Below, one piece after another: positions 14,985 through 58,221 of a DNA stretch of 64,000 bases; position 1 is the first letter of the stretch; every line of letters starts with the position of its first letter. The DNA is from Methanolobus profundi. GTDB lineage: Archaea > Halobacteriota > Methanosarcinia > Methanosarcinales > Methanosarcinaceae. The stretch lies in contig NZ_FOUJ01000001.1 of assembly GCF_900114835.1 (NCBI RefSeq), positions 930,001-994,000 of the forward strand, in the 5' to 3' direction. The position numbers were made by a program, and so were the translations under genes. Under the pieces are notes generated by a model, which was not told the origin of the DNA, did not search any database, and was given only the letters and a program-made list of their open reading frames with translations.

Positions 14985-17486
14985 TCAGTTCCATTTAGGG
15001 ATCTTTACATGGAACGAACTTCCCTGTCCGATCTCGCTCTCTATCCAGATATCTCCCTGATGGGCAGCCACAGTATCCTTGCAGATATACAGACTGGATT
15101 CAAATCCCTGGAACATCCTGGCAATAGAATCATCCGCCTGATACATCTTGTAGAACAGACGTGGTATCAGGTCCTGTGCTATACCCTCGCCATTATCCTT
15201 TATGCTCACATGCAGGTGTCCGTTCTCTTCATAGACATCTATCCCTATGCTGTTACCTTTAGGCGTGAGATTGATAGCATTATGGATCAGGTACACGAAC
15301 ATCTCTGTCAGCTTATCCTTATCACCTTTCACAGGCGGCAGACCTGTGGGTATATTCTTTTCAAGAGCAAGCTCTTTCTCATCGATAAGCAGGATCTGGT
15401 TCAACAGGACATCAGAAAGTACAGTGCCTAAACTCACCGGTTCAAAGGAATACTCGATCCTGCCTGACTGCTGAAGGTCACTATAAAGTACCGCATCGAT
15501 AAGCAGTTTCAGTCTCTCGGAGTTGTTCAGTAATGCAGAGATAGCCTCCTTCTGGGAATCATCCAGCAGGTTCAGAGTTTCATCGTCCAGTGCATCGAAA
15601 CTATGTAAAAGGTCATGACCTTTCCTCATACTATCCTCGAGGAACTCCTCCCTGATCATATTCACCGATCGAAGCTTTGTATTAGCTTTTGATAATTCTT
15701 CGGAGTACTTGCTCAGAGCACCTATCAACTGCTTCCTCTGGATAAGTTTCCACATACCCTGCATGAGAAGTGTGAGCTGGCGAACATCGGATTCATCATA
15801 GTTCTCCTCCTTGTTACCGACACCCACAACAGCAACGATATGATCACCATCGAATATTGGGACATTCATATGTCTTATAAGTTCGACATGTCCCTCAGGA
15901 TAACCTTTCTTCATTGGGTCAGGAGCAGCATAATCGTTAGTTATGATAGCCTTTCTTTGTTTTACAGCCTCACCCCAGAGTCCTGTGGATTCTACAGGAT
16001 AGATGAACTGCCTGTCACTTATCCCACACTCTGCCATTGCATTCTTTGACCACGAATGCATGATAAGATCAGTTTCACCGGCATTCATGAATGCAAGATA
16101 ACCAAGCTTGCTCTCGGTAAGTCTTACAGCCTCTTCCTTAACGAACTCAGCTATCTCATCAAGGGAATCACCTGTCATCTCATTGAGCCTGATAAGAGCT
16201 TCCAGTCTGGATTCGTTCAAATGCTTTGCCTTTTCGGCCTTCTTACGTTCAGTTATATCACGTGCAACGGAAAGGATCGTCTTCTTACCATTGTAATTGA
16301 TCATCCTTGCATTGATCTCCAGAGGGATAACAGAACCGTTTTTACAGATCGCTGCTGCCTCGTACATGACCTTATGGTCCCTTTCGATCACCTTGATAAG
16401 TTCACAGGCACGCTGTACATACCATGAAGGAACAATGTCTATAGGGGATGAATTCAAAATAAAGTCCTTTGAATAACCAAGACTATCTACTACCACCTTG
16501 TTAACATCTATGAGATTACCGTTCAGTTCACTGACATAGATCTGGTCATTGATGTTGTTGAAGATCGTCTTGAACCTGTGATCAGCTTCCCTGAAGCTCT
16601 CGTTAGCGATCCTGTGCTCGATCTCGATAGCTGCCAGATCAGCATTGGCTTTCAGGTACTCGTAACATGTTTTCTTGGGTTTGTTCGGGAAATTGAAATA
16701 CATCAGGAAGACACCTAATATCTCACCGGTGGAGGCGGTGATGAGCTCTGCCCAGCTGGCTTTAAGACCTGCTTTCTTTGCAAGCTCCCTGTGTCTTGCC
16801 CAATATGGATGCACCTCTATATTATCGACTATCACCCGTTCTCCCATATAGAGTGCAGTACCTCCCGAACAAACTCCGTATCCTATCTCCAGCCCTTCTA
16901 GAGCTTCTTTATAAAATGAAGGAAGATTAGGTGCAATGACACGACAGATATGCTGATGCTGCTTATCCAGTAGCATAACGGCACATGTAAGCCCTTCGCG
17001 GATCCTTTCCGCATTGGTGACAAGTAGTCCCAGAACATCCTCAAGTGAGATCTCAGTAAGCACTTTCCTTCCATGGTTCTTCTGTTGATGGACTATCATT
17101 TGATGGTGCTTACGCTCAGTGATATCAGTTATCGTGCCTTCGAGGTGGATATTGTCCTTGTCATAGACCTTTATACGAACCCGGTCCTCAACAAAACGCA
17201 CCTCATCGAACCGGCTCAGTATCCTGTATTCCTGAATGAACTCAGGTAACTGTTTATTAAGGTACTTGAAAGCCTTCATTACAGCTTTCCTGTCATCAGG
17301 ATGGATAAGGTCAGCAAATTTTACCTTACCTGAATAGAGTTCTTCAGGTGCATAGCCGAACTGTCTTACATTGTTAGAAATATACTTTACCGGAAGACCT
17401 TTTTCGACTTTCCTTGATATCACAATAACTGGACTATTGTTTATCACCGATTCCATGCTGATATCTAGATCTGGTTGTAAGCTCAT
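14985..17486 (-). CDS. Sensor kinase, PAS-GAF-PAS-GAF-HATPase (MsmS/RdmS-like layout)
   Basis: The 833-residue cytoplasmic protein contains PAS (about 15-125), GAF (about 140-290), PAS (about 300-415), GAF (about 435-590), a coiled dimerisation region (about 600-690) and a HATPase domain (about 720-833). This order matches the methanogen heme sensors MsmS and RdmS of Methanosarcina acetivorans, known to act with Msr regulators on methyltransferase genes. Cys487 in the second GAF is a possible heme ligand but is not proven. The kinase core looks degenerate: no canonical H-box (SHELRTPL) is visible, and the G2 region reads QGFESSLYICK instead of a GxGLGL pattern. The N-box (HNAINLTP) and DNGEGI are kept. 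The RamA-like gene and an Msr gene lie just upstream on the same strand. Confidence 0.85.
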   Translation of the reverse strand: MSLQPDLDISMESVINNSPVIVISRKVEKGLPVKYISNNVRQFGYAPEELYSGKVKFADLIHPDDRKAVMKAFKYLNKQLPEFIQEYRILSRFDEVRFVEDRVRIKVYDKDNIHLEGTITDITERKHHQMIVHQQKNHGRKVLTEISLEDVLGLLVTNAERIREGLTCAVMLLDKQHQHICRVIAPNLPSFYKEALEGLEIGYGVCSGGTALYMGERVIVDNIEVHPYWARHRELAKKAGLKASWAELITASTGEILGVFLMYFNFPNKPKKTCYEYLKANADLAAIEIEHRIANESFREADHRFKTIFNNINDQIYVSELNGNLIDVNKVVVDSLGYSKDFILNSSPIDIVPSWYVQRACELIKVIERDHKVMYEAAAICKNGSVIPLEINARMINYNGKKTILSVARDITERKKAEKAKHLNESRLEALIRLNEMTGDSLDEIAEFVKEEAVRLTESKLGYLAFMNAGETDLIMHSWSKNAMAECGISDRQFIYPVESTGLWGEAVKQRKAIITNDYAAPDPMKKGYPEGHVELIRHMNVPIFDGDHIVAVVGVGNKEENYDESDVRQLTLLMQGMWKLIQRKQLIGALSKYSEELSKANTKLRSVNMIREEFLEDSMRKGHDLLHSFDALDDETLNLLDDSQKEAISALLNNSERLKLLIDAVLYSDLQQSGRIEYSFEPVSLGTVLSDVLLNQILLIDEKELALEKNIPTGLPPVKGDKDKLTEMFVYLIHNAINLTPKGNSIGIDVYEENGHLHVSIKDNGEGIAQDLIPRLFYKMYQADDSIARMFQGFESSLYICKDTVAAHQGDIWIESEIGQGSSFHVKIPKWN

Positions 17487-17575: not shown

Positions 17576-19219
17576 TCATACTGCAGGCATGTCCCCTGTT
17601 GAGAATGATCTTATCTCCCTGTAGCTTATCGCCTTTACAGGACAGACACCAACACACCTCTTACAGCTCATTCCAAGACACAGATGAGCGGTATAATCCA
17701 CATAGACATGTCCGTCCTTCGGGACAACATGTAGTGCCTGCTCGGGACATTCACGTTCACATATCTTACACTGCATGCAGCCACTGGATTCCTCTTCAAT
17801 GATCATATCCAGGTCCTTTATGATCTTCAGACCCTGATATCCAGTGTCATCGATATCCTTATTGACCCTCTGTTCGATCGAAGGTATATCTGTGACCTCT
17901 GGCAATCCGGGCATTCCATATGCTTCAAGGAAATGATTATACATCTCAGCCTGCATACCTTCGGTCCAGTAGGCCAGTTCACATGCATAGATGTTCTTGA
18001 AAGTGTCATTGGAAGCCAGCATTATGTGATCTGCCTTTATCCTGTCAGCAAGCTCCACGATCTCATCCAGTTCAAAGTTCCCGAGAACCACGTCCTTTGC
18101 GAGTTCCAGTGACGTATTTCCGAACTGTACGATGTTCTTGGAGAACACAGGAGCAAGTCCTATCTTCCTTCCTTTCTCTGCATCGACATAGGTCCCTGAT
18201 GCACCAGACATATACATGTACTTCAGGTCCTCATACTTCAACCCGGACTCGATCAGCAATGTAAGATGAGCTGCTCTTATGGCACCGATAGCTTTTCCTG
18301 CCTCGGCTATGTCCTCGTCAGTAAGAAGGACGGTCTCACCAAGTACAAGTCTGCCCTTTGGCAGTTCAGGTAACTTCTTTATCAGGCCGGTATTTACAGC
18401 CAGAGAAATAGCTGAGATGACACCGGTTCCTGTGATACCTCTTGCATAGACCTCACCCTTTTCAACGATGACACCTGTTTCCGGATCGATCAGGTCACCT
18501 TTTCCAGGTTCCATATTCTCATCCAGAACCGTCATACGCCAGAAGCCATCCTCAATATTCACATCTGAAATAGCTCCCGGACTGGCAAGCATTCCGCATT
18601 TGATACCCTGACCTTCGATCGAAGGACCTGCTGCTGCACTGCATGTTACGATACGGTCACCGACCTTCAATGCCATCTCAGCATTGGTACCGTAATCAGT
18701 GACTATGGCGATCTCTTCCTGCCTGATGAAATCGGTCTTTATCATCATTGCAAGAGCATCGGCACCGATCTCATGTTCGATGGAAGGAAGGACTATGATC
18801 TCACATTCGTCCAGACCTGAATCGATACCAAAGATATCACTGCCTTTATAGATCCTAAGACCTCTTTTCACTTCCTCGATACCAAGCCTTCTCTGCATGT
18901 TCTTACCTGCATAGGCAAGATCCCTTATCTCGATATTCTGGAAAAGGGATAACTGGATAGGATTTCCACATACAGCTATCTTTGTGATCATCTCCAGAGG
19001 GATGTGTAATTCATCGAGCATCTTGTGGATAGTGTGGGTCATTATCTTGTTCGCACTATCCTGTCCTACCTGAATTGCAAAACCCAGGTGATCGATCACG
19101 TTCCCACCGGGAAGTGGATGCCTCATTGTCATTACTGTTTTTACAGCACTCTTTTTACTAAGGTTCAAAAGCTGCAACCGAAATCCGCTTGTTCCCAGAT
19201 CCAATGCAATTCCGTACAA
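17576..19219 (-). CDS. ramA: RamA-like corrinoid protein reductive activase
   Basis: The 547-residue product belongs to the ASKHA-domain activases that use ATP to reduce Co(II) corrinoid methyltransferase proteins to active Co(I). It begins YGIALDLGTSGFRLQLL (phosphate-1 loop of the actin fold), continues with VTDYGTNAEMAL and GASGTYVDAEKGRKIGL, and ends with two [4Fe-4S] motifs, CMQCKICERECPEQAL and CLGMSCKRCVGVCP. This is the order of RamA of Methanosarcina. I place the start at a TTG (19219), because AAAGGAGG stands about 9 nt before it and the protein then begins exactly where RamA does; an ATG at 19264 would precede that site. It is driven from a conserved promoter about 470 bp upstream. 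It may be a paralog specialised for the corrinoid protein at 24084. Confidence 0.9.
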   Translation of the reverse strand: MYGIALDLGTSGFRLQLLNLSKKSAVKTVMTMRHPLPGGNVIDHLGFAIQVGQDSANKIMTHTIHKMLDELHIPLEMITKIAVCGNPIQLSLFQNIEIRDLAYAGKNMQRRLGIEEVKRGLRIYKGSDIFGIDSGLDECEIIVLPSIEHEIGADALAMMIKTDFIRQEEIAIVTDYGTNAEMALKVGDRIVTCSAAAGPSIEGQGIKCGMLASPGAISDVNIEDGFWRMTVLDENMEPGKGDLIDPETGVIVEKGEVYARGITGTGVISAISLAVNTGLIKKLPELPKGRLVLGETVLLTDEDIAEAGKAIGAIRAAHLTLLIESGLKYEDLKYMYMSGASGTYVDAEKGRKIGLAPVFSKNIVQFGNTSLELAKDVVLGNFELDEIVELADRIKADHIMLASNDTFKNIYACELAYWTEGMQAEMYNHFLEAYGMPGLPEVTDIPSIEQRVNKDIDDTGYQGLKIIKDLDMIIEEESSGCMQCKICERECPEQALHVVPKDGHVYVDYTAHLCLGMSCKRCVGVCPVKAISYREIRSFSTGDMPAV

Positions 19220-19680
19220 ATTATTCCTCCTTTTGATAGTGAATTTTGAAAGGCTGCTGACCATTCACTGTTATATGCCGAATAATCTGTGAGATAAGTA
19301 TAAATAACGAATTCGAGCAAAAAATAAGAGCTGGCGATATAATCAACAGCTCAAACGTGAATGATATGATCGATAGAACAACGCCTTTATCAAAAAATAA
19401 TGCGATCGATAATATCAATGCTATTTATTTTATACTGAAACGATAGATAGATCGTCCATTTGTAAAGAGAAAAGGTCGCAGAGCCTTGTATTGTGTGGAG
19501 AGACCCTGCGACATGTGTAGATGGTACGTAGAATATCGCACAGTTGTGTAGAAATGGTATCTAATCATATCTTGAAGGCTGATCTCTAATGTTGGAAGTA
19601 GAGTGGATAGACCCTTGCAGTGCGATAGTCCCTGCATCTACGTGCACCTGTCACGTCATGACAGGTTTACAATTCCTAGT
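19220..19680 (-). promoter_or_regulatory. Long structured 5' leader of the RamA-like gene
   Basis: The conserved promoter at 19694-19742 predicts transcription from about 19670, leaving a leader near 450 nt with no convincing gene. Visible structure includes a perfect 8-bp hairpin, ACCTGTCA/TGACAGGT (19646-19666), paired GTCGCAG/CTGCGAC arms (about 19473-19514) and repeated AGGG-CT-TC(C)AC motifs. No B12-box sequence of the standard cobalamin riboswitch was recognised. A 70-codon open frame on the same strand (19425-19637) lacks a ribosome binding site. Confidence 0.5.
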
Positions 19681-19693
19681 ATCTGGTAAAAGG

Positions 19694-19848
19694 ATATATA
19701 ATAACCTCTGGTAATTGATCGATGATGCAATTATTATCAATAACGTAAACCTGGTCAAAATGATTGATCGTGAGAACAGGCAAATTCCAGATATAAGCAT
19801 ACAAAAGAACAGAGATATAAGAAGAATTTAAGCCATTGATATTATCAA
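19694..19848 (-). promoter_or_regulatory. Regulon promoter 1 (RamA-like gene): TATA block plus distal palindrome
   Basis: On the minus strand, a distal palindrome TTGATAATATCAA (19848-19836) precedes a 49-bp block (19742-19694). The block begins TATTGATAATAATT, contains TCGATCAATTAC, and ends in the TATA region GGTTATTATATAT. The block matches promoter 3 at 39 of 49 positions without gaps, and the TTGATA-to-TTGATA distance is 108 bp, the same as in promoters 2 and 3. Confidence 0.85.
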
Positions 19849-19930
19849 AAGTGTGGATCAGGAGATGTGCAGGTTCCACTTGAAAAGAATGATTCCTCGC
19901 TCAAAGACCTTGGTAAAGAAAGAAAAAGGA

Positions 19931-20713
19931 TCATTTGACCTGTTCTGCAAGGCCTCTGTAATGCAAAAAGAACTCCTGACCCCATTGTCGTGCAGTATCT
20001 TCAAAACTTATAACCTTTTTATGATCGAAGAATCCCTTCTTGTTGAAGAACGAGAGCAACAGAAGATTATCCGTGACCGAGATCGCACCTGGTTTTATAA
20101 TATTCTCATCACAAACGAACAGATGTGAGTTCTGGGATTCCATGATCGCATTATACTGCTCGGTGTACTCTTCCTTCAGTCTTTCATATACCGGCCTGGT
20201 AAGGATAAGGTTGTAATTCACTTCCTTTCTTGCCAGTTCTGCATAGTTGTTAGGACATGTGGGACAGAAGTACGAATAGAACGTGCATACATTCTTTGTC
20301 TGTTTAAGACTTGTAAGCAACTCCTTTGGTGGTTCGAAAAGATGGTTCAGGTCCGGTTCATGTATCATAACATCACCAAGATCCCCGATCCTGTCAAGCA
20401 ACATATCAGGTACTGCACCCAGATCCCTGCTTGCCCAGAAATCCTTGTTCCCTTCCACAACGTTCAGAGCCTCTATTAATGGTTTTATCTTCTTGAGAAT
20501 TATCTGCCCTACATGGGTCAATCTGTACTCATCATTCTCCTGTTCGATCAGTCCCTGCTCAAGAAGTATCTTTATCTGAGCCATGATCGCACTGGTGGTA
20601 CCATTGATAGAACTCTTTATCTCATCGATACTTGCCGGTTTTTCCATCAACATGATAAGAGTGTTCTTCCTCTTCTCTGACAGAAATACTGTACTAATCA
20701 ATTCTGTTTTCAT
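19931..20713 (-). CDS. Msr/FilR1-type winged-helix regulator (DUF1724)
   Basis: The 260-residue product has an N-terminal winged helix (about 1-70, SEKRKNTLIMLMEKPASIDEIKSSINGTTSAIMAQIKILLEQGLIEQ) and a C-terminal sensor domain. This is the architecture of the Msr proteins that control methyltransferase operons in Methanosarcina. A FYSYFCPTCPNNY motif (about 148-160) offers a CxxC redox or metal site. It is very close in sequence to the gene at 57439-58221. I chose the ATG at 20713, behind GGTGAG and matching the start of that paralog; an upstream start adds 18 unsupported residues. It lies between the RamA-like gene and a zinc-ribbon gene and is a candidate regulator of the shared promoters. 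Confidence 0.88.
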   Translation of the reverse strand: MKTELISTVFLSEKRKNTLIMLMEKPASIDEIKSSINGTTSAIMAQIKILLEQGLIEQENDEYRLTHVGQIILKKIKPLIEALNVVEGNKDFWASRDLGAVPDMLLDRIGDLGDVMIHEPDLNHLFEPPKELLTSLKQTKNVCTFYSYFCPTCPNNYAELARKEVNYNLILTRPVYERLKEEYTEQYNAIMESQNSHLFVCDENIIKPGAISVTDNLLLLSFFNKKGFFDHKKVISFEDTARQWGQEFFLHYRGLAEQVK

Positions 20714-20836
20714 GGTTAGCTCACCTGCCCTTCCTTTGATAGGGTCACCTGGTCCGACCGAACGCAACTGACCTGTAACTGGTAAAATACTGCCATTTTT
20801 TCACCTGAGATAAGGGGACCACAGCGACCCCCATTA

Positions 20837-21178
20837 TTATTGACCTGGTCTTTCTCCAAATGTGTGATGATATCGCTTGATGACAGATCCGATATAGTTG
20901 GATGTCATCCTGGATGATCTTTTTGACATGAAATTGTTCAGTGGGAACTCTGTATGACAATGTGTGCATCTGGCAAGTTCACAACCCCTGACCAGACTTG
21001 GACATCCTGTACATAGTTTTGCCCTTGAGTAGAATAGGTTGAAGGTAGTACCACACTCAGGACAATGTAGCATCCTGTTCGCGTCGTAGAAACTCTTGTT
21101 GACCCCCTTCCTTTGAAGCTCAAAAGAATATCTTTCATCACGCTTCAGGTCATCGATAAATCTTTTCTCATCTGACAT
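20837..21178 (-). CDS. Small zinc-ribbon protein, unknown function
   Basis: The 113-residue protein has a charged N-terminal half and a cysteine-rich centre: CPECGTTFN (about 50), CTGCP (about 68), C in RGCELARCTHCHTEFP (about 78-90). That gives four CxxC-like knuckles, enough for one or two zinc sites or a small Fe-S cluster. The basic C-terminus (KRSSRMTSNYIGSVIKRYHH) could bind nucleic acid. The start at 21178 is set by AAGGTGA; a longer in-frame start adds an unlikely hydrophobic stretch. It precedes the Msr regulator on the same strand by about 120 bp. I do not recognise a named family. Confidence 0.65.
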   Translation of the reverse strand: MSDEKRFIDDLKRDERYSFELQRKGVNKSFYDANRMLHCPECGTTFNLFYSRAKLCTGCPSLVRGCELARCTHCHTEFPLNNFMSKRSSRMTSNYIGSVIKRYHHTFGERPGQ

Positions 21179-21513
21179 CTTTTTCACCTTGTTGACTGCC
21201 ATACATGATTTTGAGTTCAGGTATATATATAACGAATTATGCAGGAAAATCAAATAGGCTCAAGAAATCTGTTGTCAGCAAAAAAACAATGGTCTTGATA
21301 AAATCAAAGCCTTGAACATAACAACTGGATCAGATATAATAATCTGTTTTATCCATATTTTATACATATAAAAAATGAGGAAGATATCTGAACAGAAAAA
21401 AGATACCTTCTGGCAAACTGCATTTTGCAAACTATCCAGTATTCCCTTATTCTATAACTGGAACGATCAAAAATGGTGTGTTAAAAATGAGAGCAGGTAT
21501 TTTGTGAGGATCC

Positions 21514-23682
21514 ATGGCATTTCAGAGATTGTTCGAGCCTGCGTATATTGGGAAATGCCATCTCAAGAACAGGATCATCATGGCACCTATTGGTAATATC
21601 AATATGGCAGACCCCACCGGACGTCCTCTTGATAAGATGACAGAGTACTTCAAAGAAAGAGCAAAGGGTGGAGCAGGACTATTGATAACCGGCCTTGTCC
21701 CTGTTTCCTATGGTATCGACCCCTGCCTTTACGAAGAGAACAACACAACATATTTTCCCCGTATCGATGGTTCTTCCAGAACAAGACTTAGCGGATGGAG
21801 AGACCTCACAGCAGCGGTCAAACCATATGGATCAAAGATATTCATTCAGCTTTCACCCGGACTTGGAAGAGTAGGTTCTCCTGAACCTGCATTGAAAGGA
21901 AAGATACTAAGATCTGCTTCATGGAACAGGAACTTCTACATACCCCAGGTACCTCATCTTCCACTTTCTGATCGCAAGATAAAGAAGATCATCAAAATGA
22001 TGGGACAGAGTGCAGCTAATGCGAAAGTATCAGGGTTCGATGGTATCCACCTGCACGGACATGAAGGATACCTGATGGACCAGTTGACATCTGCACCCTG
22101 GAACCGAAGGATCTTCGGCAGGTACAGGAACAGGTTCCAGTTCGGTATCGATGTTGTCAAGGAAATAAAGGAACGTTGCGGAGAGGATTTTCCTGTGATC
22201 TACAGAATAGATCTTACACAGGCGTTACAGGAAAGTTATGGAAATGAGGTTTTCAGGAAACGTTTCCACGGAAAAGAAAGAGATATTGAAGAAGGACTTC
22301 AGTTCTGTAAAGCTCTCCATGAAGCAGGTGTGGATGCATTCGATGTCGATAAGGGATGTTATGATAACTGGTTCTGGCCACATCCTCCTTCCTATTTTGA
22401 TGATGCTATATACGTCAAAGAAATGGCCGGCAAGCTAAAGGAGTTCTTCAGACAGGAAGGAATCGATACAAAAGTGATAGCTGTAGGTAAACTTGGAAAA
22501 CCTGAAACTGCTGAAAATGTCCTTGAAAAAGAATGGTCAGACTTTGTGATGCTTGGAAGACCTCTGCTTGCCGATCCATACTGGCCTGCTAAAGTAAAAG
22601 CTGGCAGAACAAAAGAGATCATCCATTGTATAGGCGACCATGAAGGCTGCATGGAATCGTTCAAAAAAGGCGGCCATCCCTGCTGTTCAGTGAACCCTTA
22701 CACCGGTTTTGAGGATACAAAGAAACTGGTCAGATCAGATACTATAAAGAAAGTGGCTGTCATTGGTGCCGGTCCTGCCGGTTGTGAAGCTGCTATGACC
22801 GCATTCAAGAGAGGACATGATGTAACTCTCTTCGAAAGAACTGACAGGATTGGCGGTCAGTTGTTCACTGCCGGTAAGATGGCAATAAAACATGATATCC
22901 GAAGGTATCTCGATAACCTGCAGTACCAGATAGGACTTATGGAGAAGAAAGGTCTGAAACTGGAGTTCAATAAGGAGATCAGGAACCATGACATCGCTGA
23001 TCAATATGATGTTATTATCTGCTGCAACGGACTGCGAACATCATTACCTGATATCAATGGGATCGATAACGTTGATCATATCGAGGCACGGGAGTTCCTG
23101 AACCGGAACATGAAGCTTTCGGCAGGTGTTAAAGATATAATGGTAGTAGGCGGTGGGATGATCGGTTGTGAGATCGCTTATTCCCTTGCCTGTGAAAAAG
23201 GAATAGATGTAACGCTGGTAGGAAGGAATAAGGAACTTATGCCGGAGACCACACATGCCAACCGGGCACAGATGCTCTGGATGATGATGGGAAAAGGTTC
23301 ACCATCTGGAAAGGAAGAGGATGTCCTTGAAAGAGCAATAAGGGTGTTGAATTCCTCTAATATAGTACGATTCTCAGATGGCAAAGCCCATGTTAAAGCT
23401 AACAGGGGAAGAAAAGACCCATACACACCCTGGAAGCCATTGATCCCTGAAAATGTAAAGGATCCCTTTGAAAAGGAACTTGACCCTGATGATGTGGAAG
23501 ATATCATCATCGACACCGATCTTGTGATCTTTGCTACCGGTGGGAAGGCAGATGATGCACTCTACTATGAACTGCTGAAAAGAGATGCTGCACCAGAGAT
23601 CTATTCAGTGGGGGATGCAAGTGGGACCGGAAGGGTCTGGGAAGCCGTTACCGGAGCTAATGAGATAGCCAGGAATATCTGA
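21514..23682 (+). CDS. Old Yellow Enzyme/FadH-like FMN-FAD oxidoreductase with altered Fe-S motif
   Basis: The 722-residue protein has the layout of 2,4-dienoyl-CoA reductase and trimethylamine dehydrogenase. An FMN TIM barrel (about 1-350, start FEPAYIGKCHLKNRIIMAPIGN, substrate-side HLHGHEGYLMDQL) is followed by a [4Fe-4S] segment, then an FAD domain (AVIGAGPAGCEAA, about 412) and an NAD(P)H domain (MVVGGGMIGCEIAYS, about 547). The cluster segment reads CIGDHEGC...CC, while the family has CxxCxxxC...C: the second cysteine is Asp. Trimethylamine dehydrogenase belongs to this family, so a role with methylated amines or enoates is conceivable. GAGG precedes the ATG. It stands just before promoter 2 but has no visible copy of the shared promoter itself. 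Confidence 0.88.
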   Translation: MAFQRLFEPAYIGKCHLKNRIIMAPIGNINMADPTGRPLDKMTEYFKERAKGGAGLLITGLVPVSYGIDPCLYEENNTTYFPRIDGSSRTRLSGWRDLTAAVKPYGSKIFIQLSPGLGRVGSPEPALKGKILRSASWNRNFYIPQVPHLPLSDRKIKKIIKMMGQSAANAKVSGFDGIHLHGHEGYLMDQLTSAPWNRRIFGRYRNRFQFGIDVVKEIKERCGEDFPVIYRIDLTQALQESYGNEVFRKRFHGKERDIEEGLQFCKALHEAGVDAFDVDKGCYDNWFWPHPPSYFDDAIYVKEMAGKLKEFFRQEGIDTKVIAVGKLGKPETAENVLEKEWSDFVMLGRPLLADPYWPAKVKAGRTKEIIHCIGDHEGCMESFKKGGHPCCSVNPYTGFEDTKKLVRSDTIKKVAVIGAGPAGCEAAMTAFKRGHDVTLFERTDRIGGQLFTAGKMAIKHDIRRYLDNLQYQIGLMEKKGLKLEFNKEIRNHDIADQYDVIICCNGLRTSLPDINGIDNVDHIEAREFLNRNMKLSAGVKDIMVVGGGMIGCEIAYSLACEKGIDVTLVGRNKELMPETTHANRAQMLWMMMGKGSPSGKEEDVLERAIRVLNSSNIVRFSDGKAHVKANRGRKDPYTPWKPLIPENVKDPFEKELDPDDVEDIIIDTDLVIFATGGKADDALYYELLKRDAAPEIYSVGDASGTGRVWEAVTGANEIARNI

Positions 23683-23778
23683 TAATTCTCTGAATTCAAG
23701 AATAGGAACGCGATCGTGTGAATGTGATCAGATCACAAAAACTTCTCTTTCGTTCAACAACTGATAATATTCATGCTT
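23683..23778. other. Short spacer before promoter 2
   Basis: No gene or strong hairpin is seen between the oxidoreductase stop and the distal palindrome of the corrinoid gene promoter. Confidence 0.4.
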
Positions 23779-23933
23779 TTGATAATATCAAAGGTGTTCT
23801 TTTTTTGCATACCGGGGTTTTTCTACAACATATAGATCCTGAATAGCCGATCTGCAATATCCACATTTTGAATTAAGAATATAGTATTGATAATAATTAT
23901 TTTGTTGATTAATTACTCTAAGTTATTATATAT
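23779..23933 (+). promoter_or_regulatory. Regulon promoter 2 (corrinoid protein gene): TATA block plus distal palindrome
   Basis: TTGATAATATCAA (23779-23791, perfect palindrome around a central A) is followed 108 bp later by the TTGATA of the 49-bp block at 23885-23933. That block contains TATTGATAATAATT, TTGATTAATTAC and the TATA region AAGTTATTATATAT. It matches promoter 3 at 43 of 49 positions with no gaps. In both, GAATATAG stands just before the block and a run of T follows the distal palindrome. Confidence 0.9.
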
Positions 23934-23943
23934 ATTCGTATGG

Positions 23944-23982
23944 GTAATGGTAAATTGTCAACCATTACAGATCCATGATCTG
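23944..23982 (+). promoter_or_regulatory. Two hairpins at the 5' end of the corrinoid gene leader
   Basis: GTAATGGT/ACCATTAC (23944-23951 with 23961-23968) and CAGATC/GATCTG (23968-23973 with 23977-23982) are adjacent perfect stems close to the expected transcription start, about 100 bp before the ATG. They could stabilise the abundant methyltransferase mRNA or serve as a regulatory structure. Confidence 0.45.
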
Positions 23983-24083
23983 TTCTGTTGACCTGATACA
24001 TAATTCACAGAACAATGTTCAGGAATGCAGCGAACTGAAATACCCCCATTCCTGGACCTTGACAAAAAGATCGGAGGTATTCT

Positions 24084-24749
24084 ATGGAAGAAAATGAGAT
24101 CATCAACGGACTGACCGATTCAGTGGTCAATGGAAAGAAGGATCAGGCAATCGAATTAGCAGAAAAGGCACTGGCAGAAGGTATTGATCCTTACATAGCA
24201 GTGATAAATGGTCTTGCAAAGGGCATGGAGATCATGAGCGAGAGATATGAGCAAAAGCAGGCATTCATGCCACATCTCCTGATGGCTTCCAACGCAATGT
24301 ACGGAGGTATGGACGTACTCGTACCACACATCAAGACCGAAGGTGAAGGAGCAAGAAAGGTCCTTGTCATCGGCAGTGTGGAAGGAGATGTACACGATAT
24401 TGGAAAGAACCTCGTAAAAACCATGATGAGTGCTGTTGGTTTCGAGGCTATAGACCTTGGTAAGGATGTACCTGTCGAACAGTTCGCAGAAGCTGCTGTC
24501 GAGCACAAGGCAGACGTCGTATCTATGAGCACACTCATGACATCAACAATGGATAACATGCAGAGGGTCATGGACAGTCTTGAGAGCAGAGGCATCAGGA
24601 ACAACCTGAAGGTGATCATCGGTGGTGCACCTATAACTGCAGACTTTGCAGACGAGATCGGTGCAGATGCGACCAAGACCGATGCCATGGAAGCTGCAAG
24701 ATGGGCACAGGATGCAGCAGCAGCACTTTCACCTGAAAGGTGGAGCTAA
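24084..24749 (+). CDS. Corrinoid (B12-binding) methyl-carrier protein, MtaC/MtbC/MttC family
   Basis: The 221-residue protein has the standard form of methanogen and acetogen methyl carriers. An N-terminal four-helix cap (about 1-90, AEKALAEGIDPYIAVINGLAKGMEIMSERYEQKQAFMPHLLMASNAMYGG) precedes a Rossmann B12 domain with EGDVHDIGKNL. His104 is the lower axial cobalt ligand. The later STLMTSTMDNM and GGAPITADFADEIGAD are also diagnostic. It carries a methyl group between a substrate-specific methyltransferase and a methylcobamide:CoM methyltransferase. GGAGG precedes the ATG. No substrate-specific partner is adjacent; the promoter is shared with the UroD-family gene at 53925. Class (MtaC, MtbC, MttC, MtpC) cannot be settled by eye. 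Confidence 0.92.
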   Translation: MEENEIINGLTDSVVNGKKDQAIELAEKALAEGIDPYIAVINGLAKGMEIMSERYEQKQAFMPHLLMASNAMYGGMDVLVPHIKTEGEGARKVLVIGSVEGDVHDIGKNLVKTMMSAVGFEAIDLGKDVPVEQFAEAAVEHKADVVSMSTLMTSTMDNMQRVMDSLESRGIRNNLKVIIGGAPITADFADEIGADATKTDAMEAARWAQDAAAALSPERWS

Positions 24750-25099: not shown

Positions 25100-26119
25100 A
25101 TGGAAGAATACACACCAAAAGAGAGACTGTCACGTGCATTAAGAGGAGAAGCAGTTGACAGGATGCCAGCTATCTCTGTTACACAGACAGGAACTGTGGA
25201 ACAGATGGAAGCCTGTGGTGCATTTTGGCCGGAAGCTAATGAAGATGCACAGAAGATGGCAACACTTGCAGAAGCAGGACATACTGTCATTGGTCTTGAA
25301 GCCGTGCGTGTTCCCTTTGACATCACAGCAGAAGCCGAGTTCTTCGGATGCAAGATAAAGGACGGTACCAAGGAACAACAGCCATCTGTTGTAGGTCACG
25401 TAGTAAAGTCTATCGAAGATGTCGAGAAGCTCAAGGATTATGACATCAGTGAAGGCAGGATCGGCGTTGTATGTGATGCCATCAAGATACTTGCAGAGAA
25501 ATACGGTGAAGAACTGCCTATCATGGGTAGTATGCTCGGTCCTTTCTCCCTTGCACAGCACATGAATGGTGATGACTGGTTCATGGCTATCATGACCGAT
25601 GAGGATTTCGGTTTTGCTCTTATGGAACTTACTACCGAGTTCAACATAGAATATGCAAAGAAGATGGTCGAGAACGGAGCAGATACAATGGTCATAATAG
25701 ACCCAACTGCAAGTGCAATGCTTATCGGTGACGAGTTCTACCAGAAATTCGTGGTACCTGCACACAAAAGAATAGTAGATGCAATGCGTGAACTGAACGT
25801 TGCCACCGTACTGCATATCTGTGGAGATACAACACCAAGTCTGGGACTTATGGAATCTTCAGGAGTTGACGCCATAAGTGTTGACCAGAATGTAGATGTT
25901 GCTACTGCTCTCAGCAAGGTTGACAAAGCAGTTATCGTCGGCAACCTTGACCCGGTAAGTGCCCTGTGGAAGCAGTCCCCGGAAGATATCAAAGAGGTAT
26001 CAAAGGGCATACTGGAAGCAGGGGTCGGGCTTCTGGGACCAGGCTGTGGTATCGTGAGCAAAACACCAAATGCAAACCTGCAGGCTATGGTCGAAATGGC
26101 CAAAAACCACAGGTATTAG
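25100..26119 (+). CDS. Methylcobamide:CoM methyltransferase, MtbA/MtaA family
   Basis: The 339-residue protein belongs to the uroporphyrinogen-decarboxylase-fold methyltransferases and should move the methyl group from a corrinoid protein to coenzyme M. The zinc site HxC-x74-C is intact: His239 and Cys241 in VLHICGDTT, and Cys316 in [15 protein letters not shown]. The N-terminus ([27 protein letters not shown]) is typical of MtaA/MtbA. A GGAG site lies about 9 nt before the ATG. It follows the corrinoid protein gene after 350 bp and ends at a strong terminator, so the two form one transcription unit from promoter 2. Assignment to a substrate class is not possible by eye. Confidence 0.92.
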
Positions 26120-49554: not shown

Positions 49555-50694
49555 TCAATTACCGGTCCATCTTTCTATGTCGCTTATCCTCTGATCCACA
49601 CAGGAACCACACTGACATGGTTCATCGATAATGGAAGTGATATCACGGGTCCTGTAACGGATAAGAGGCATACACTTTCTCCTCAGGGTTGTGACAACAA
49701 GCTCCCCTTTCTCACCTTCAGGCAATACCTTCCCCGTTTCAGGATCAATGATCTCAACAAGGAAATCAGGATTGTTCAGGTGGAAGCCGTTCTGGTGATC
49801 ACACTCAATGGCATTTGCCAGACCTAGCTCTGTCATTCCCCACTGCCTGAGGGTCTTACAGCCCCAGACACTCTCGATCTCTTCCCTCATTTCCTCTGTC
49901 AAAGGTTCGGATGAGCAGATCATCCTCTTGATACCAAGTTCTCCAGGTTCGATGAGCCCACGTGCCTGTCTTGAAAGATCATAGAGGAAAGACGATGTCC
50001 CTATTATGAAGGTAGTACCAGATTCCCTCATGGTCTTTATCTGCTGTTCTGCATCAAGAGAATCCTCGATAACTGAATTGAAACCTCCAAGAGCACATGC
50101 TTTGCTGAGAACAAGTCCGGGATCCCATGTTGCCGTTATAGTCGGATACATTATCTGCAACACGTCATCCTTTGAATCCATACCTGCCATTTTCAGACCG
50201 GATATAACAGAATCAACTATCTCCAGTAGTTCATCCTGGGTATATGCCATCCTTTTGAGCATGTTAGTGGTACCGGAACTTGTGAACTCACGGATAATGT
50301 CCTTTCTTGGAACACAAAGGAAGTGATAAGGTTTGTTCGCAAGGTCCACCTGTTCTGTGAGTGGCAGTTTTTCGATATCTTCATAGCTCCTGATATCAGA
50401 GATAGCGATGCCTGCATTTGCATAGAGGTCCTGGTAATAGGGACTATTATCCAGTACATATGCCAGAAGTTCTCTGAACTTGAAGAGCTTGTACTCTTTG
50501 ATTGATTCCCTGTCAGGTTCTTCGCTGCCAAAGTAATTGCTCATTACCCTGTTGTTCTTGATATCGCTTCTTATCTTTGTAAGACCCCACTGTTCAAGCG
50601 GGTTGCCTTGCTGGATGTTTATCTTTCTGGAATCGAGCTTCCTTTTTGCCACACTCATACGAACAGACGTGTTTATCTTTGTGCAAAGACTCAT
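49555..50694 (-). CDS. AMP-forming CoA ligase, DVU_1553/phenylacetate-CoA ligase type
   Basis: The 379-residue protein belongs to the adenylate-forming enzymes related to phenylacetate-CoA ligase and F390 synthetase. Motifs are FTSSGTTNMLKRMAYTQDEL (nucleotide loop, about 95-115), SSEPLTEEM and QWGMTELGLANAIEC (about 240-260), and GELVVTTLRRKCMPLIRYRTRDI (about 310-335). The C-terminal cap domain is short. The ATG at 50694 is preceded by GGAGG; upstream codons in frame give a hydrophobic stretch unlike the family. I believe it matches the NCBI family DVU_1553 AMP-dependent CoA ligase, usually next to TrsS-type radical SAM proteins, which is the case here. Confidence 0.8.
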   Translation of the reverse strand: MSLCTKINTSVRMSVAKRKLDSRKINIQQGNPLEQWGLTKIRSDIKNNRVMSNYFGSEEPDRESIKEYKLFKFRELLAYVLDNSPYYQDLYANAGIAISDIRSYEDIEKLPLTEQVDLANKPYHFLCVPRKDIIREFTSSGTTNMLKRMAYTQDELLEIVDSVISGLKMAGMDSKDDVLQIMYPTITATWDPGLVLSKACALGGFNSVIEDSLDAEQQIKTMRESGTTFIIGTSSFLYDLSRQARGLIEPGELGIKRMICSSEPLTEEMREEIESVWGCKTLRQWGMTELGLANAIECDHQNGFHLNNPDFLVEIIDPETGKVLPEGEKGELVVTTLRRKCMPLIRYRTRDITSIIDEPCQCGSCVDQRISDIERWTGN

Positions 50695-50792
50695 TTTTCT
50701 GCCTCCTGTATCTTCTGGACATACTGTCCCGTTCCCTGATGAAAATAATAAGGATAATAAAAAGAAAAAATAAAACGAAGGAATATGATATA

Positions 50793-52250
50793 TCAGGCAG
50801 CATCCCTGTAGAGGAAGTTGCCATTGCAATCGGTCATATTATAGTTACAGAAGGGGATGAATCTGCCGTCACGTGTGACAACATGTATACAGCAGTTCTC
50901 AACACGGTCCTGCTCATATGACCATACATCCTGGAATGCCATGGTTGAAATTGTGAGGTAATTGTTCTTGCTCATCTCAATGAAATCTGCCCAGCCACCG
51001 GTCTTATCCTTACCGGAACCCGGGTTCTTTGAAAGGACATCTATAAGTGGTTTCTCACAACAGGACCCCTTCACGGTCAGTTCACTGAGAGGCTTTTCAC
51101 AGCAGGAACCCTTTATCAGCAGATCACCACATGAAGATGCTGGCTTTGGGTCCTTCTCAAGACCTTTCCATCTGCCCATGATGGACTTCTTGGTCTTACT
51201 TGCCACGTCAGATGCAGACTTTACAGCTCCCATGGAAACGTTTGTAAGTGGCAGGAAGCCGCCGTTGTCGATAAGTGTGAGACATGTGGCTCCACAATGT
51301 GCATGTGGCATCAGTGAAGGTGTAAAATTGCTGACCTTGAGCTGTCCTTCTGTTTGCTTTTCGATCTCCCTCAATAGTTCCAGTATAGTTACCTTGTCCG
51401 TCATGTCAGATGGTGATCTTCCTGAATGGAACACTGGCTGGAAGTGAACACCCCTTACAGCAGGAACTCTTCTTGCTGCGAAATCTATTATCTTGCCGAC
51501 CTCATGAAGATTGTAGCCCTTGGCTACCAGTGGTACGAGCACAACACCGATACCGGCCTTTTCGCACCTGTTAATGACCTCTGTCTTAACATCAAGCATC
51601 TTCCTTCCGGTCCTCTGCATGTAGACCTCATCCGATACGCCGTCAAATCCAAGATAGACTGCATCGATACCTGCAGCAGCGATCTTGTCAAAGTACTCCT
51701 GGTCATTTGAGATCCTGACACCATTGGTGTTCAGCTCGATGTGGCTGATACCTATTTCCTTTCCCATTCTGATGATCTCCGGGAGGTCGTTCCTCAGGGT
51801 CGGTTCCCCGCCGGAGATCTGGATACATGTGGGTTCATTCTGGCATTTCTTTACCGTCTCGAACATCAGCCTGATGGTATCCATATCAGGATCAAGGCTC
51901 TCATCCATTGATGAATTTGCAAAACAATATGTACATTTCATATTACACCTGTCAGTGATCTCGACCACTGCCAGGCAGGTATCCTGTTTGTGAGAGGGAC
52001 ACAGACCGCAATCGTAAGGACAGCCTCTTTGTGTATCCGTTAAAGGCGCTCTGGCCTTTGATCTGTCAACATCGAAGCATTCATCCATCTGACGATAATG
52101 GTCTATATCTTCAGAGACAAGGGTTATGAAGTTGCCATGTTCGGCACAGTTCTTCATTATGTAGACCTTGCCATCTTCGACATATTTTGTGCCTTCGATC
52201 TTAGCAAGACATTCCGGACACAGACTCTGTACTTTTTCGATCGGTTCCAT
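50793..52250 (-). CDS. Radical SAM protein, TrsS type, with GSCCEKP repeats
   Basis: The 485-residue protein has a Cys-rich lead domain (CPECLAKI...CAEHGNF, CPYDCGLCPSHKQDTC, about 10-100), a radical SAM motif CNMKCTYC (about 107-114) and QISGGEPTLRNDLPEI. The C-terminal part holds two GSCCEKPL repeats at about 391-409 and further cysteines (ENCCIHV). From memory, TrsS-family proteins have this layout, with selenocysteine in some species; here all are Cys. It presumably makes a modified substrate or peptide using S-adenosylmethionine. GAGGG stands 7 nt before the ATG at 52250. It lies between the redox protein and the CoA ligase in the operon. Confidence 0.82.
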   Translation of the reverse strand: MEPIEKVQSLCPECLAKIEGTKYVEDGKVYIMKNCAEHGNFITLVSEDIDHYRQMDECFDVDRSKARAPLTDTQRGCPYDCGLCPSHKQDTCLAVVEITDRCNMKCTYCFANSSMDESLDPDMDTIRLMFETVKKCQNEPTCIQISGGEPTLRNDLPEIIRMGKEIGISHIELNTNGVRISNDQEYFDKIAAAGIDAVYLGFDGVSDEVYMQRTGRKMLDVKTEVINRCEKAGIGVVLVPLVAKGYNLHEVGKIIDFAARRVPAVRGVHFQPVFHSGRSPSDMTDKVTILELLREIEKQTEGQLKVSNFTPSLMPHAHCGATCLTLIDNGGFLPLTNVSMGAVKSASDVASKTKKSIMGRWKGLEKDPKPASSCGDLLIKGSCCEKPLSELTVKGSCCEKPLIDVLSKNPGSGKDKTGGWADFIEMSKNNYLTISTMAFQDVWSYEQDRVENCCIHVVTRDGRFIPFCNYNMTDCNGNFLYRDAA

Positions 52251-52307
52251 TTTTATCCCTCTCAAAGGTGGTATTTATCTCAGGGATCCTGAGACTTGGG
52301 TTACAAT

Positions 52308-52766
52308 TTAAGCTCTCTTCTCTTCCAGGATCGCTTCTGCGGTCTTCAGTGTCTTTGCCACACCATCGGATACGTAGAATTCATCACACTTTGGACATAC
52401 AAGTCCTGGTCCCGGTCTTGTAACGCCCATGTATGTCATGTCCACATTCCTTTCCAGTGCGATCTCGCCACATTTTGCACATGCCCATTCGCTTGCATCA
52501 TCATAGTCGATCTCATTGAGCTCTCCGCCTGTGAGACCGAGAATGTTCATCTTGTGGGCGTACACGTCTAAGAGTTCATCAGGTGAGTAGACCGCATAGA
52601 CTGTGAGGTTGTCCGATCCACCCTTTGCAATTGTTACGTTGCCATCTCTGGCCTTGAGCTTTGTACCACTGGCCTCTGCATTTGCAATGAGCTCCTGGAT
52701 CTCTTCCTTTTTGAAACCGTTATCCTTCAGTGTGTTGTCAAGTTCTTCAGTTATCTTAATATCCAT
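52308..52766 (-). CDS. DVU_1557-type CxxC redox protein
   Basis: The 152-residue protein has an acidic helical N-terminal half (about 1-60), a middle with VYAVYSPDELLDVYAHKMNILGLTG, and two CxxC pairs: CAKCGEIALE (about 95) and CPKCDEFYV (about 125), with GVTRPGPGLVCPKC between. This matches my memory of the DVU_1557-family redox protein, usually next to TrsS. The CxxC pairs bind zinc or act in thiol redox. It lies 42 bp after the methyltransferase stop codon in the operon. AAGGAG precedes the ATG. Confidence 0.8.
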   Translation of the reverse strand: MDIKITEELDNTLKDNGFKKEEIQELIANAEASGTKLKARDGNVTIAKGGSDNLTVYAVYSPDELLDVYAHKMNILGLTGGELNEIDYDDASEWACAKCGEIALERNVDMTYMGVTRPGPGLVCPKCDEFYVSDGVAKTLKTAEAILEEKRA

Positions 52767-52812
52767 TTTGAAACACTCCTTAAATTTTCCTTATTTGCTG
52801 CGATCCTCATCC

Positions 52813-53925
52813 TCAGAACTTCTCATACTTTCCGTGGTCTTTTGCAGCCTTTACCAGTGCATGGACATTTACAGGTGGTGCGTTGGTCGGACATTCACAT
52901 GCAGTTCCAAGAATGAATCCTCTTGGACTGTCCTTTCCTGCAGTTACCTGTTCCTTGGCCTGTTCGTATACCTGTGCAGGAGTTCCACGATCAATGAGCT
53001 TTGTGTCCACTGTTCCAAAACATGTACATCTGTCACCGAAGTGTTCTACGAGCTTGGATGTTGGGAAGATGTTCTGTCCGTCATATCCGATCTGTACGAT
53101 GGTAAATGGACTCATTGGAGCGTTCTTCCACATCTCGAAGTCATCGGTATGGTTTCCACAGAGGTGGTAGTAGATACCCGGACCTGCTCCTGAGTTCAGG
53201 ACCTTTCTGACAGCACGTGAGACTGGCTGGAAACCGAACCTCTTGATCTGTTCTGTGTCCATGAGATCACCACTGGCGATAACGGATCCTGTGATCATTA
53301 CGTTGGCACCGTACCTTTCGGATGTTGCCTTACATGCGTTCACCATGTGGTCTCCTGCCTTTACACAGAGCTTGTCAACGAGTTCAGGTTCTGTGATCAT
53401 CCACATGAAGACGTCCTCAATAGCAGCCCAGTTGGTTGCTACTTCCATTGTTCCGCCTAACTGTGTGATAGGAGCGAACATGTGAGGGAATTCTTCTTTA
53501 CAGGTATCAAGAGCCTTGTAGTGTGTTGTGAGGGTCGGACCCTTGGTCAGTTCATCAACATCAAGGACCTCGAAGTTGTCCACATCTTCAGCGGTCTTGA
53601 TAGGACGCTTTGTGATACCTGGTGGAGAGTTGGTCTGGACCTTTATTTCGGCTCCATAGTCCTGTCCCCAGTAGTCTGCATACAGATAGTGGCCAACAGG
53701 AGTGACATCGTAGAGTTCACATGCATGGCATACCATTCGTATCGCTTCGTCAGGATTCTGATAGAAATATCCTGCATTTTTTCTGAACAGGCTTGCAGCA
53801 TGGGACAATATGATCGGATCTACAATGACCCTGTCAGATGGCTTGTCAACCCAAGGTGTTGTCCACAAACTTCCTGCTTCTTCTAGCCAATTTTGATCTA
53901 TTGGTGCGTAATCTTTTGCTGGCAT
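52813..53925 (-). CDS. UroD-family methyltransferase, likely substrate- or corrinoid-specific
   Basis: The 370-residue protein has the uroporphyrinogen-decarboxylase TIM-barrel fold shared by MtaA, MtbA and MtpA methyltransferases. The zinc-type site is present: His254 and Cys256 in YYHLCGNHTDD, and Cys343/Cys345 in GTACECPTNAPP. Conserved parts are GHYLYADYWGQDYGAEIKV and VMITGSVIASGDLMDTE. I start at the ATG at 53925, after GGTGATC. It is only distantly similar to the CoM methyltransferase at 25100. It leads the operon, from promoter 3. A substrate-to-corrinoid methyltransferase or a second CoM transferase are both possible. No TAG readthrough was noticed. Confidence 0.85.
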   Translation of the reverse strand: MPAKDYAPIDQNWLEEAGSLWTTPWVDKPSDRVIVDPIILSHAASLFRKNAGYFYQNPDEAIRMVCHACELYDVTPVGHYLYADYWGQDYGAEIKVQTNSPPGITKRPIKTAEDVDNFEVLDVDELTKGPTLTTHYKALDTCKEEFPHMFAPITQLGGTMEVATNWAAIEDVFMWMITEPELVDKLCVKAGDHMVNACKATSERYGANVMITGSVIASGDLMDTEQIKRFGFQPVSRAVRKVLNSGAGPGIYYHLCGNHTDDFEMWKNAPMSPFTIVQIGYDGQNIFPTSKLVEHFGDRCTCFGTVDTKLIDRGTPAQVYEQAKEQVTAGKDSPRGFILGTACECPTNAPPVNVHALVKAAKDHGKYEKF

Positions 53926-54076
53926 GATTTGATCACCCATGTTCTTATATGGTCGGCAGATCACGGAAATCAGAATTACCGCCCTTTGCCGCCTATTTAA
54001 TGATTAACTATGTGTGGTCGGTAATACAGACCGAGATCCGCAATTACTGACTAAAGAGAAATAGCAAGCTGGAGTT
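53926..54076 (-). promoter_or_regulatory. Leader of the UroD-family methyltransferase operon
   Basis: About 125 nt from the expected start near 54050 to the ATG, similar in length to the corrinoid gene leader but without visible sequence similarity to it. No ORF is convincing. Confidence 0.35.
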
Positions 54077-54231
54077 ATATATAATAACTTCAAGTAATTA
54101 ATCAACGCATGAATTATTATCAATACTATATTCCAGGATCAAATAGTGATCATAACGAATACCATATTTTAGAACGATACCATGCAGGAAGACTTTGATA
54201 AGAAGAAAAAAAGAACCTTTGATATTATCAA
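54077..54231 (-). promoter_or_regulatory. Regulon promoter 3 (UroD operon): TATA block plus distal palindrome
   Basis: On the minus strand TTGATAATATCAA (54231-54219) precedes the 49-bp block at 54125-54077: TATTGATAATAATT, TTGATTAATTAC and the TATA region AAGTTATTATATAT. The two TTGATA sequences are 108 bp apart. GAATATAG stands just before the block, as in promoter 2, and the distal palindrome is followed by AAGG and a T run, also as in promoter 2. Confidence 0.9.
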
Positions 54232-54284
54232 GGGCATGGATATTGACAGTGATCGATCATTGACAAATTCTGCCCTTCTAATAT

Positions 54285-57438: not shown

Positions 57439-58221
57439 CTACTTTACCCTCTCAGACCTCTCCTTGTAATACTGGAAGAGATCCTGTCCCCAGTTGCGGG
57501 CACTTTCCTCGAAGCTTATGACCTTCTTGTGATCGAAGAAACCATCCTTGTTGAAGAAAGCTATGAGCATCAGGTCATCGGTTACGGAGAGAGCACCCAG
57601 TTTCATGGATTCGTCGTCGCAGATGTACATGTGGGAGTTCTTCGAGTTCATCATGGCATCATGCTGTTCCTTGTATTCATCCCGCAGCCTTTCATATACC
57701 GGACGGGTCAGGATGAGATTGTAATTGACCTCTTTTCTTGCCAGTTCTGAGTAGTTGTTAGGACATGTGGGACAGAAATATGAGTAAAATGTACACACAT
57801 TCTTTGTCTCATGAAGGCTGGTAAGTAACTCCTTTGGTGGCTCGAAAAGGTGGTTGAGGTCAGGCTCATGGATCAGTATATCTCCAAGGTCACCTATCCT
57901 GTCAAGAAGGAACTCAGGTATTGGATCAAGGTTCCTGCTGTCCCAGAAATCCTTGTTCGCCTCCACCACATTCAGTGTCTCGATGAGAGGTCTGATCTTC
58001 TTCATTATCAGCTTTCCAATGGAAGTGAGCCTGTATTCATCCTCTTTTTGTTCTATAAGTCCCTGTTCAAAGAGGATCTTAACCTGGGCCATTATCGCAC
58101 TGGTTGTCCCTGTGAGAGACTCTTTTATCTCGTCAACGGTAGCTGGTCCATCCATTAACATCAAAAGAGTTTGCTTTCTCTTCTCTGACAGAAACACCGT
58201 ACTTATCAATTCGGCCTTCAT
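57439..58221 (-). CDS. Msr/FilR1-type winged-helix regulator (close paralog of 19931-20713)
   Basis: The 260-residue protein is near identical in plan and very similar in sequence to the regulator at 19931-20713: the same start M-K-x-ELISTVFLSEKRK, winged helix, FEPPKELLTSL, YFCPTCPNNY and FNKDGFFDHKKVISFEESAR. The CPTC motif may form a redox or metal switch. Such close paralogs in Methanosarcina (MsrA to MsrF) differ in which methyltransferase operon they activate. Along with the regulator near ramA, it is a candidate binder of the TTGATA elements. Confidence 0.88.
   Translation of the reverse strand: MKAELISTVFLSEKRKQTLLMLMDGPATVDEIKESLTGTTSAIMAQVKILFEQGLIEQKEDEYRLTSIGKLIMKKIRPLIETLNVVEANKDFWDSRNLDPIPEFLLDRIGDLGDILIHEPDLNHLFEPPKELLTSLHETKNVCTFYSYFCPTCPNNYSELARKEVNYNLILTRPVYERLRDEYKEQHDAMMNSKNSHMYICDDESMKLGALSVTDDLMLIAFFNKDGFFDHKKVISFEESARNWGQDLFQYYKERSERVK

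Follow-up and report, generated by a model that had tools for sequence, protein, structure and literature searches.

An 18-bp operator ladder predicted at methyltransferase-cluster promoters of Methanolobus, with Msr1 and Msr2 as probable regulators

The window analysed here, a stretch of 64,000 nucleotides from Methanolobus profundi, contains three promoters of one design, P1, P2 and P3, together with the genes behind them. P1 lies upstream of ramA, the gene for a RamA-type corrinoid reductive activase (17576..19264, minus strand; TIGR04270, 746 bits vs 500), after which comes a PAS/GAF sensor histidine kinase (14985..17486, minus). P2 precedes an operon that begins with an MtbC/MtgC-like corrinoid protein (24084..24749, plus) and the methylcobamide:CoM methyltransferase MtbA (25100..26119, plus; NF041608, above cut-off) and continues with ALDH, SDR and DUF5714. 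The target of P3 is a UroD-family protein (52813..53964, minus; translation probably begins at the ATG at 53925), and the rest of that operon (49555..52766, minus) encodes DUF7479, a TrsS-like radical SAM protein and a DVU_1553-type AMP ligase. A zinc-ribbon-like protein, ZnRib (20837..21253, minus), and an OYE-type flavin oxidoreductase (21514..23682, plus) are divergently oriented targets of a fourth promoter. Two candidate regulators belong to the same neighborhood: Msr1 (19931..20767, minus), whose end lies a short way upstream of P1, and Msr2 (57439..58221, minus), 74% identical to Msr1. The UroD-family protein retains the HxC (267-269) of zinc-dependent CoM methyltransferases, while its kinship with MtbA/MtaA is only distant. 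The stretch 49555-53964 (minus) appears as one conserved methanogen operon of UroD, DUF7479, TrsS-like radical SAM and DVU_1553-type AMP ligase genes, co-regulated with MtbA and RamA, and its products may form a pathway that acts on a methylated substrate so far unrecognised.

All three promoters carry the identical distal palindrome TTGATAATATCAA, followed at a distance of 108 bp by a proximal TTGATA; this pairing, first described in the initial annotation, proved exact down to the coordinates. In P1 (ladder 19693..19866, minus, with 18-bp units running from -18 up to the TATA box) the palindrome occupies 19836..19848, and the proximal region 19711..19740 holds TTGATAATA (from 19740 down) and, 18 bp on, TCGATCAATTAC (from 19722 down). 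In P2 (ladder 23761..23934, plus) the palindrome lies at 23779..23791, and the proximal sites (23887..23916) are TTGATAATA at 23887 and TTGATTAATTAC at 23905, again 18 bp apart, with the TATA box at 23923, that is 144 = 8 x 18 bp from the palindrome. In P3 (ladder 54076..54249, minus) the corresponding positions are 54219..54231 for the palindrome and 54094..54123 for TTGATAATA (54123 down) and TTGATTAATTAC (54105 down). The best 49-bp blocks match at 43/49 positions between P2 and P3 and at 39/49 between P1 and P3, as had been reported. The initial annotation overlooked a fourth palindrome, a second ramA promoter, the sequence conservation throughout the interval and the 18-bp register discussed below. 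The fourth palindrome, TTGATAAAATCAA (21295..21307), sits between ZnRib and OYE and is kept in 16 of 25 ZnRib/OYE intergenic regions. The second ramA promoter, P1b (19299..19418, minus), consists of the palindrome TTGATATTATCGA (19418-19406), a proximal TTGATTATATCG that starts at 19346, 72 bp from the palindrome, and a TATA box at 19307-19299; its layout is kept at 71-72 bp in Methanolobus relatives. The ramA leader that starts from P1 would be longer than 400 nt and contains additional repeats.

These sites are rare. The pattern of palindrome and TTGATA matches three times in the window, against an expectation of 0 from shuffles, and we extended the search by pattern to the 3.1 Mb of this organism's own Methanolobus genome, as the initial annotation had proposed. 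There the exact 13-mer occurs four times, three of them in the window; the fourth (C10:86257) lies inside a chemotaxis-type coding sequence and was set aside. The relaxed palindrome TTGATWWWATCAA is found in five places, four being promoters of the cluster and one a coding gene, against about one place expected by chance (estimated from base composition). For the proximal block, only P1-P3 match genome-wide, even at 3 mismatches.

When only the proximal block served as query against 112 genomes of the family, it matched in 21 of them, from five genera, mostly at two or three sites each, and the gene map around the matches has a recurring layout: Msr1-P1-ramA, OYE-P2-corrinoid and Msr2-P3-UroD. 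Promoters gathered through their downstream gene add Methanococcoides, in which the proximal site has diverged and the distance is still 108 bp. The combined set, whose members were located by their proximal core or by the gene they precede, comprises 62 P1-P3 promoters from Methanolobus and neighbouring genera, and distal sites were identified in it without imposing the 108-bp distance. When distal sites that carry one or two changes are counted in, the spacing is 107-109 bp in 60 of the 62, and exactly 108 bp in 53. Because this spacing persists across genera, the promoter design is, on comparative grounds, judged to be old and functional. Could P1-P3 instead reflect a recent promoter duplication or gene conversion that has no function? 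The three are clearly related to one another, as such an event would have it. However, P1, P2 and P3 are each conserved across genera where their flanks are not, and the spacing is gap-free; we rejected the explanation on the cross-genus conservation, and it strikes us as barely credible.

The initial annotation had held that the three promoters define a regulon, and the comparison bears this out: several genera keep the promoter in front of the same operons, hardly any further copies exist in their genomes, and promoter and operons occur together. Promoter and UroD presence agree in 105/112 genomes (Fisher p=6e-15, a value that ignores shared ancestry). For the clade of Msr1 and Msr2, with membership set at >=61% identity to Msr2, agreement with UroD presence reaches 108/112 (Fisher p=1e-19, with shared ancestry likewise ignored). 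Genome G126 has the genes and an Msr in an incomplete layout, and in G114 and G090 the Msr clade is present but the UroD operon is missing.

Conservation extends beyond the two named sites. Forty-nine promoters align gap-free over 183 bp, and in their group-balanced profile lags of 18, 36, 54 and 72 are the four strongest of 69 self-similarity lags. Column permutation, taking the maximum over periods 12-26, gives p=0.0002 for period 18 in the whole region and p=0.001 in the interval (positions 13-107) from which all named sites are excluded, and with 5-bp blocks the interval test gives p=0.0025. The signal is repeated separately in the Methanococcoides, Methanosalsum, UroD and corrinoid sets; in the ramA promoter set alone, period 18 is not significant in the interval. 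The named sites themselves fall on the same grid, with the palindrome at 0, the proximal sites at 108 (6 x 18) and 126, and the TATA box at 144. Tested singly, P2 (p=0.002), P3 (p=0.001) and P1 (p=0.04) show the period. When 33 upstream regions in the window (400 bp for ZnRib/OYE) were scanned without any motif, the top four period-18 scores belonged to the zinc-ribbon, UroD, OYE and corrinoid genes. An alignment-free scan of 361 kb of the same genome left P2 and P3 outside the top 14, and a scan of this kind is too unspecific to find such promoters genome-wide. The promoters of the window are thus individually only modestly periodic, and the claim of a ladder rests on the comparative profile.

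How would regulator molecules use such a promoter? The initial annotation had offered cooperative binding through either a DNA loop over ten helical turns or a stacked array. For a loop, Msr dimers at the distal palindrome and at the proximal site would face each other about ten turns apart across passive spacer DNA, and indeed there are two strong sites at a constant 108 bp, close to an integral number of turns. However, the interval is not passive in its sequence, being conserved and itself carrying the 18-bp register. Moreover, the natural spacing variants point the same way. We found 90 bp in the Methanosalsum P2, 71-72 bp in P1b, and 18 bp in the G126 UroD promoter and in the Methanococcoides zinc-ribbon promoter, where palindrome, second site and TATA box follow one another as 18 + 18 + TATA. 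To within 1 bp, each of these is a multiple of 18, and among the collected promoters we saw no variant displaced by one helical turn (+/-10-11 bp). The 36-bp indel described below fits the same series. A step of 18 bp, about 1.7 turns, would break the phase of a loop. Spacing that changes in steps of 18 rather than 10.5 bp therefore favours the stacked array, the half of the earlier proposal that survives; the loop reading is probably wrong, and we assign it little weight.

Both Msr proteins score well above the cut-off of 27 bits for FilR1_middle (PF08350), at 114 bits for Msr1 and 123 bits for Msr2. An AlphaFold2 model (pLDDT 91.9) has an N-terminal winged helix-turn-helix, with helices 29-36 and 40-52 and a wing. 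The recognition helix of Msr1 is GTTSAIMAQIKIL; the stretch SAIMAQVKIL falls in the recognition helix of the model, and in nearly all regulon genomes Msr1 and Msr2 both read GTTSAIMAQ(I/V)KIL, the Methanosalsum form being GTSSAIMTQIKIL. In most other Methanolobus genomes, Msr2 is the gene immediately upstream of P3. Together with the position of Msr1 at P1, the clade that tracks the regulon, the identical helices and a parallel at mtsH described below, this strengthens the earlier suggestion that the regulator is an Msr, and Msr1 and Msr2 are well supported as the predicted binders of the P1-P3 ladders. At the targets of MsrA/B and MsrD/E both partners are needed (PMC3960522), and because of this precedent Msr1 and Msr2 may act together.

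A different regulator could in principle occupy the ladder, such as a general chromatin protein or the TrmB-like protein encoded close by (56459-57292), and Msr1 and Msr2 would then be unrelated or mere neighbours; what gives this reading room is that we infer binding by the two Msr proteins. We think it unlikely, since only the Msr clade is seen to track the promoters and to lie directly upstream of P1 and P3 across genomes, since at mtsH of Methanosarcina acetivorans the same palindrome goes with a matching helix in the adjoining Msr, and since the half-sites differ where the adjoining Msr has a different helix.

We consider it reasonably likely, then, that P1-P3, P1b and the ZnRib/OYE promoter each form a long operator ladder cooperatively bound by Msr1 and Msr2, where we infer binding, cooperativity and activation alike. 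Degenerate half-sites resembling TTGAT-N3-ATCAA would recur at 18-bp intervals, starting with the strong distal palindrome and ending at the TATA box, and the winged-helix proteins Msr1 and Msr2 would bind them cooperatively, coating the DNA stepwise. The palindrome would be the strongest site, with the weaker units filled in register. The last two units (TTGATAATA and TTGATTAATTAC) would set protein against the TFB/TBP site, where the basal machinery would most likely be recruited, giving activation. One could turn the same array around and let it block the TATA box until substrate releases it. The last unit does abut BRE/TATA, and Msr proteins are able to act both ways (PMC3960522). However, MsrA/B, MsrD/E and MsrF are reported as activating their own targets (PMC3960522), which makes a repressor array improbable to us and activation by the ladder the reading we carry forward.

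Does the ladder extend to other Msr targets? For this we turned to genome G148, which we take to be Methanosarcina acetivorans, with its genes recognised by position. The regulon described here is absent from that genus, unlike the regulator family itself. The mtsD promoter has period 18 with z=11.0, and the mtsH promoter, whose distal end carries TTGATATTATCAA, has it with z=6.0; the Msr encoded next to mtsH has the helix GGTSSAIMAQIKIL, with the stretch SAIMAQIKIL, nearly that of Msr1 and Msr2. Across the genus the mtsD ladder is present in 13/13 Methanosarcina genomes, with 18 the best period in all (z 4.7-11.2), and the sole indel beyond single bases inside the ladder, found in 4/13, is exactly 36 bp. 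MsrF is reported to enhance expression of mtsD (PMC3960522), and two further targets, mtaCB1 (MsrA+B) and mtaCB2 (MsrD+E), are known to involve two Msr proteins, as we suggest for the present promoters. The likeness thus covers the register at mtsD and mtsH and the palindrome at mtsH, whereas mtsD uses other half-sites. In M. acetivorans, mtsF and mtaC1-3, which are further Msr targets, show no clear ladder, the signal being weak or absent. The mtaC promoters of M. acetivorans and of our own genome were rejected as ladders, having only weak signals. The ladder is no rule for all Msr promoters.

Where the half-sites change, so does the helix. In G128-G130 and G090, the promoters of paralogous Msr-corrinoid pairs show period 18 with different half-sites; in the paralogous promoter of L118 the single best period is 12, not 18. 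The helix NVT(S/T)SA(I/M)MTQIK is that of MsrF and of the paralogs whose half-sites are changed, and Msr proteins with V/MMTQ or V/IMTQ helices adjoin promoters with altered half-sites. Half-sites of the GTTAAT/ATTAAC type recur about every 18 bp at L083:18700-19080, L085:16850-17240, L118:19000-19420 and L147 (upstream of corrinoid and ramA). A recognition code between Msr helix and half-site is possible. More generally, and only tentatively, we suggest an archaeal promoter class in which an Msr/TrmBL2-like regulator might nucleate at a distal palindrome and polymerise in 18-bp steps to the TATA box. Promoter length would then evolve in 18-bp quanta, and specificity would reside in two or three recognition-helix residues, G..IMAQ reading TTGAT/ATCAA and V..(I/M)MTQ reading TTAAT/ATTAA-like or GATCA-like half-sites.

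While our focus is on a single regulon, comparison with other systems is instructive. Msr regulators decide which methylated compound methylotrophic methanogens use, and in open-access text we found no published Msr operator. The closest solved fold of Msr2 is TrmBL2 of the Thermococcales (E 1.8e-10, with overall TM-scores of only ~0.45), named an archaeal chromatin protein in its PDB title. TrmBL2 coats DNA with little sequence specificity in binding, in contrast to the present ladder, which is fixed, sequence-defined and found at few promoters. Bacterial OmpR/PhoB and archaeal Ss-LrpB also occupy several evenly spaced sites in a cooperative manner upstream of promoters; they are unrelated proteins with other unit lengths and fewer units than the roughly eight 18-bp units seen here. 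Cooperative tandem operators are therefore not new; an 18-bp ladder leading up to an archaeal TATA box is a new form of them. From FilI/FilR of Methanosaeta harundinacea comes the name of the FilR1_middle domain, and a kinase gene belongs to the present regulon too; the FilI/FilR paper gives no binding motif. What our analysis supplies is an exact predicted operator, a regulon of four to five promoters, a probable pair of regulators and a spacing rule, in a reading that reaches mtsD and mtsH in a genetically tractable species. If true, a sequence-defined stepwise array up to the TATA box would link specific archaeal activators with filament-forming chromatin proteins of the same fold.

Downstream of the promoters, the predicted P2 and P3 transcripts mostly open with a hairpin about 30 nt past the start, in P2 at 23957..23992 on the plus strand (GTCAAC..ACAGATC/GATCTGT..GTTGAC). 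Rfam has no match in the window at gathering score, this hairpin included. Its position in P2/P3-type transcripts is fixed and its base changes across genera are compensatory, in 10 of 11 pairs among 18 examples hand-picked by eye (RNAalifold), values that 0/500 shuffles reach. Because the examples were chosen by eye, we treat this apparently conserved leader hairpin as a lead.

Proximal-block matches without the distal palindrome occur at L097:8887 (minus) and L098:6637 (plus), in front of genes for a PAS-domain protein and for a BioB-like radical SAM protein. In Methanosalsum, promoters of the same type lie outside the methyltransferase cluster at L096:9008 (minus) and L094:7197 (minus), with the 108-bp spacing in L096, and are followed by a long leader and the gene for a secreted PKD/cupredoxin-like protein.
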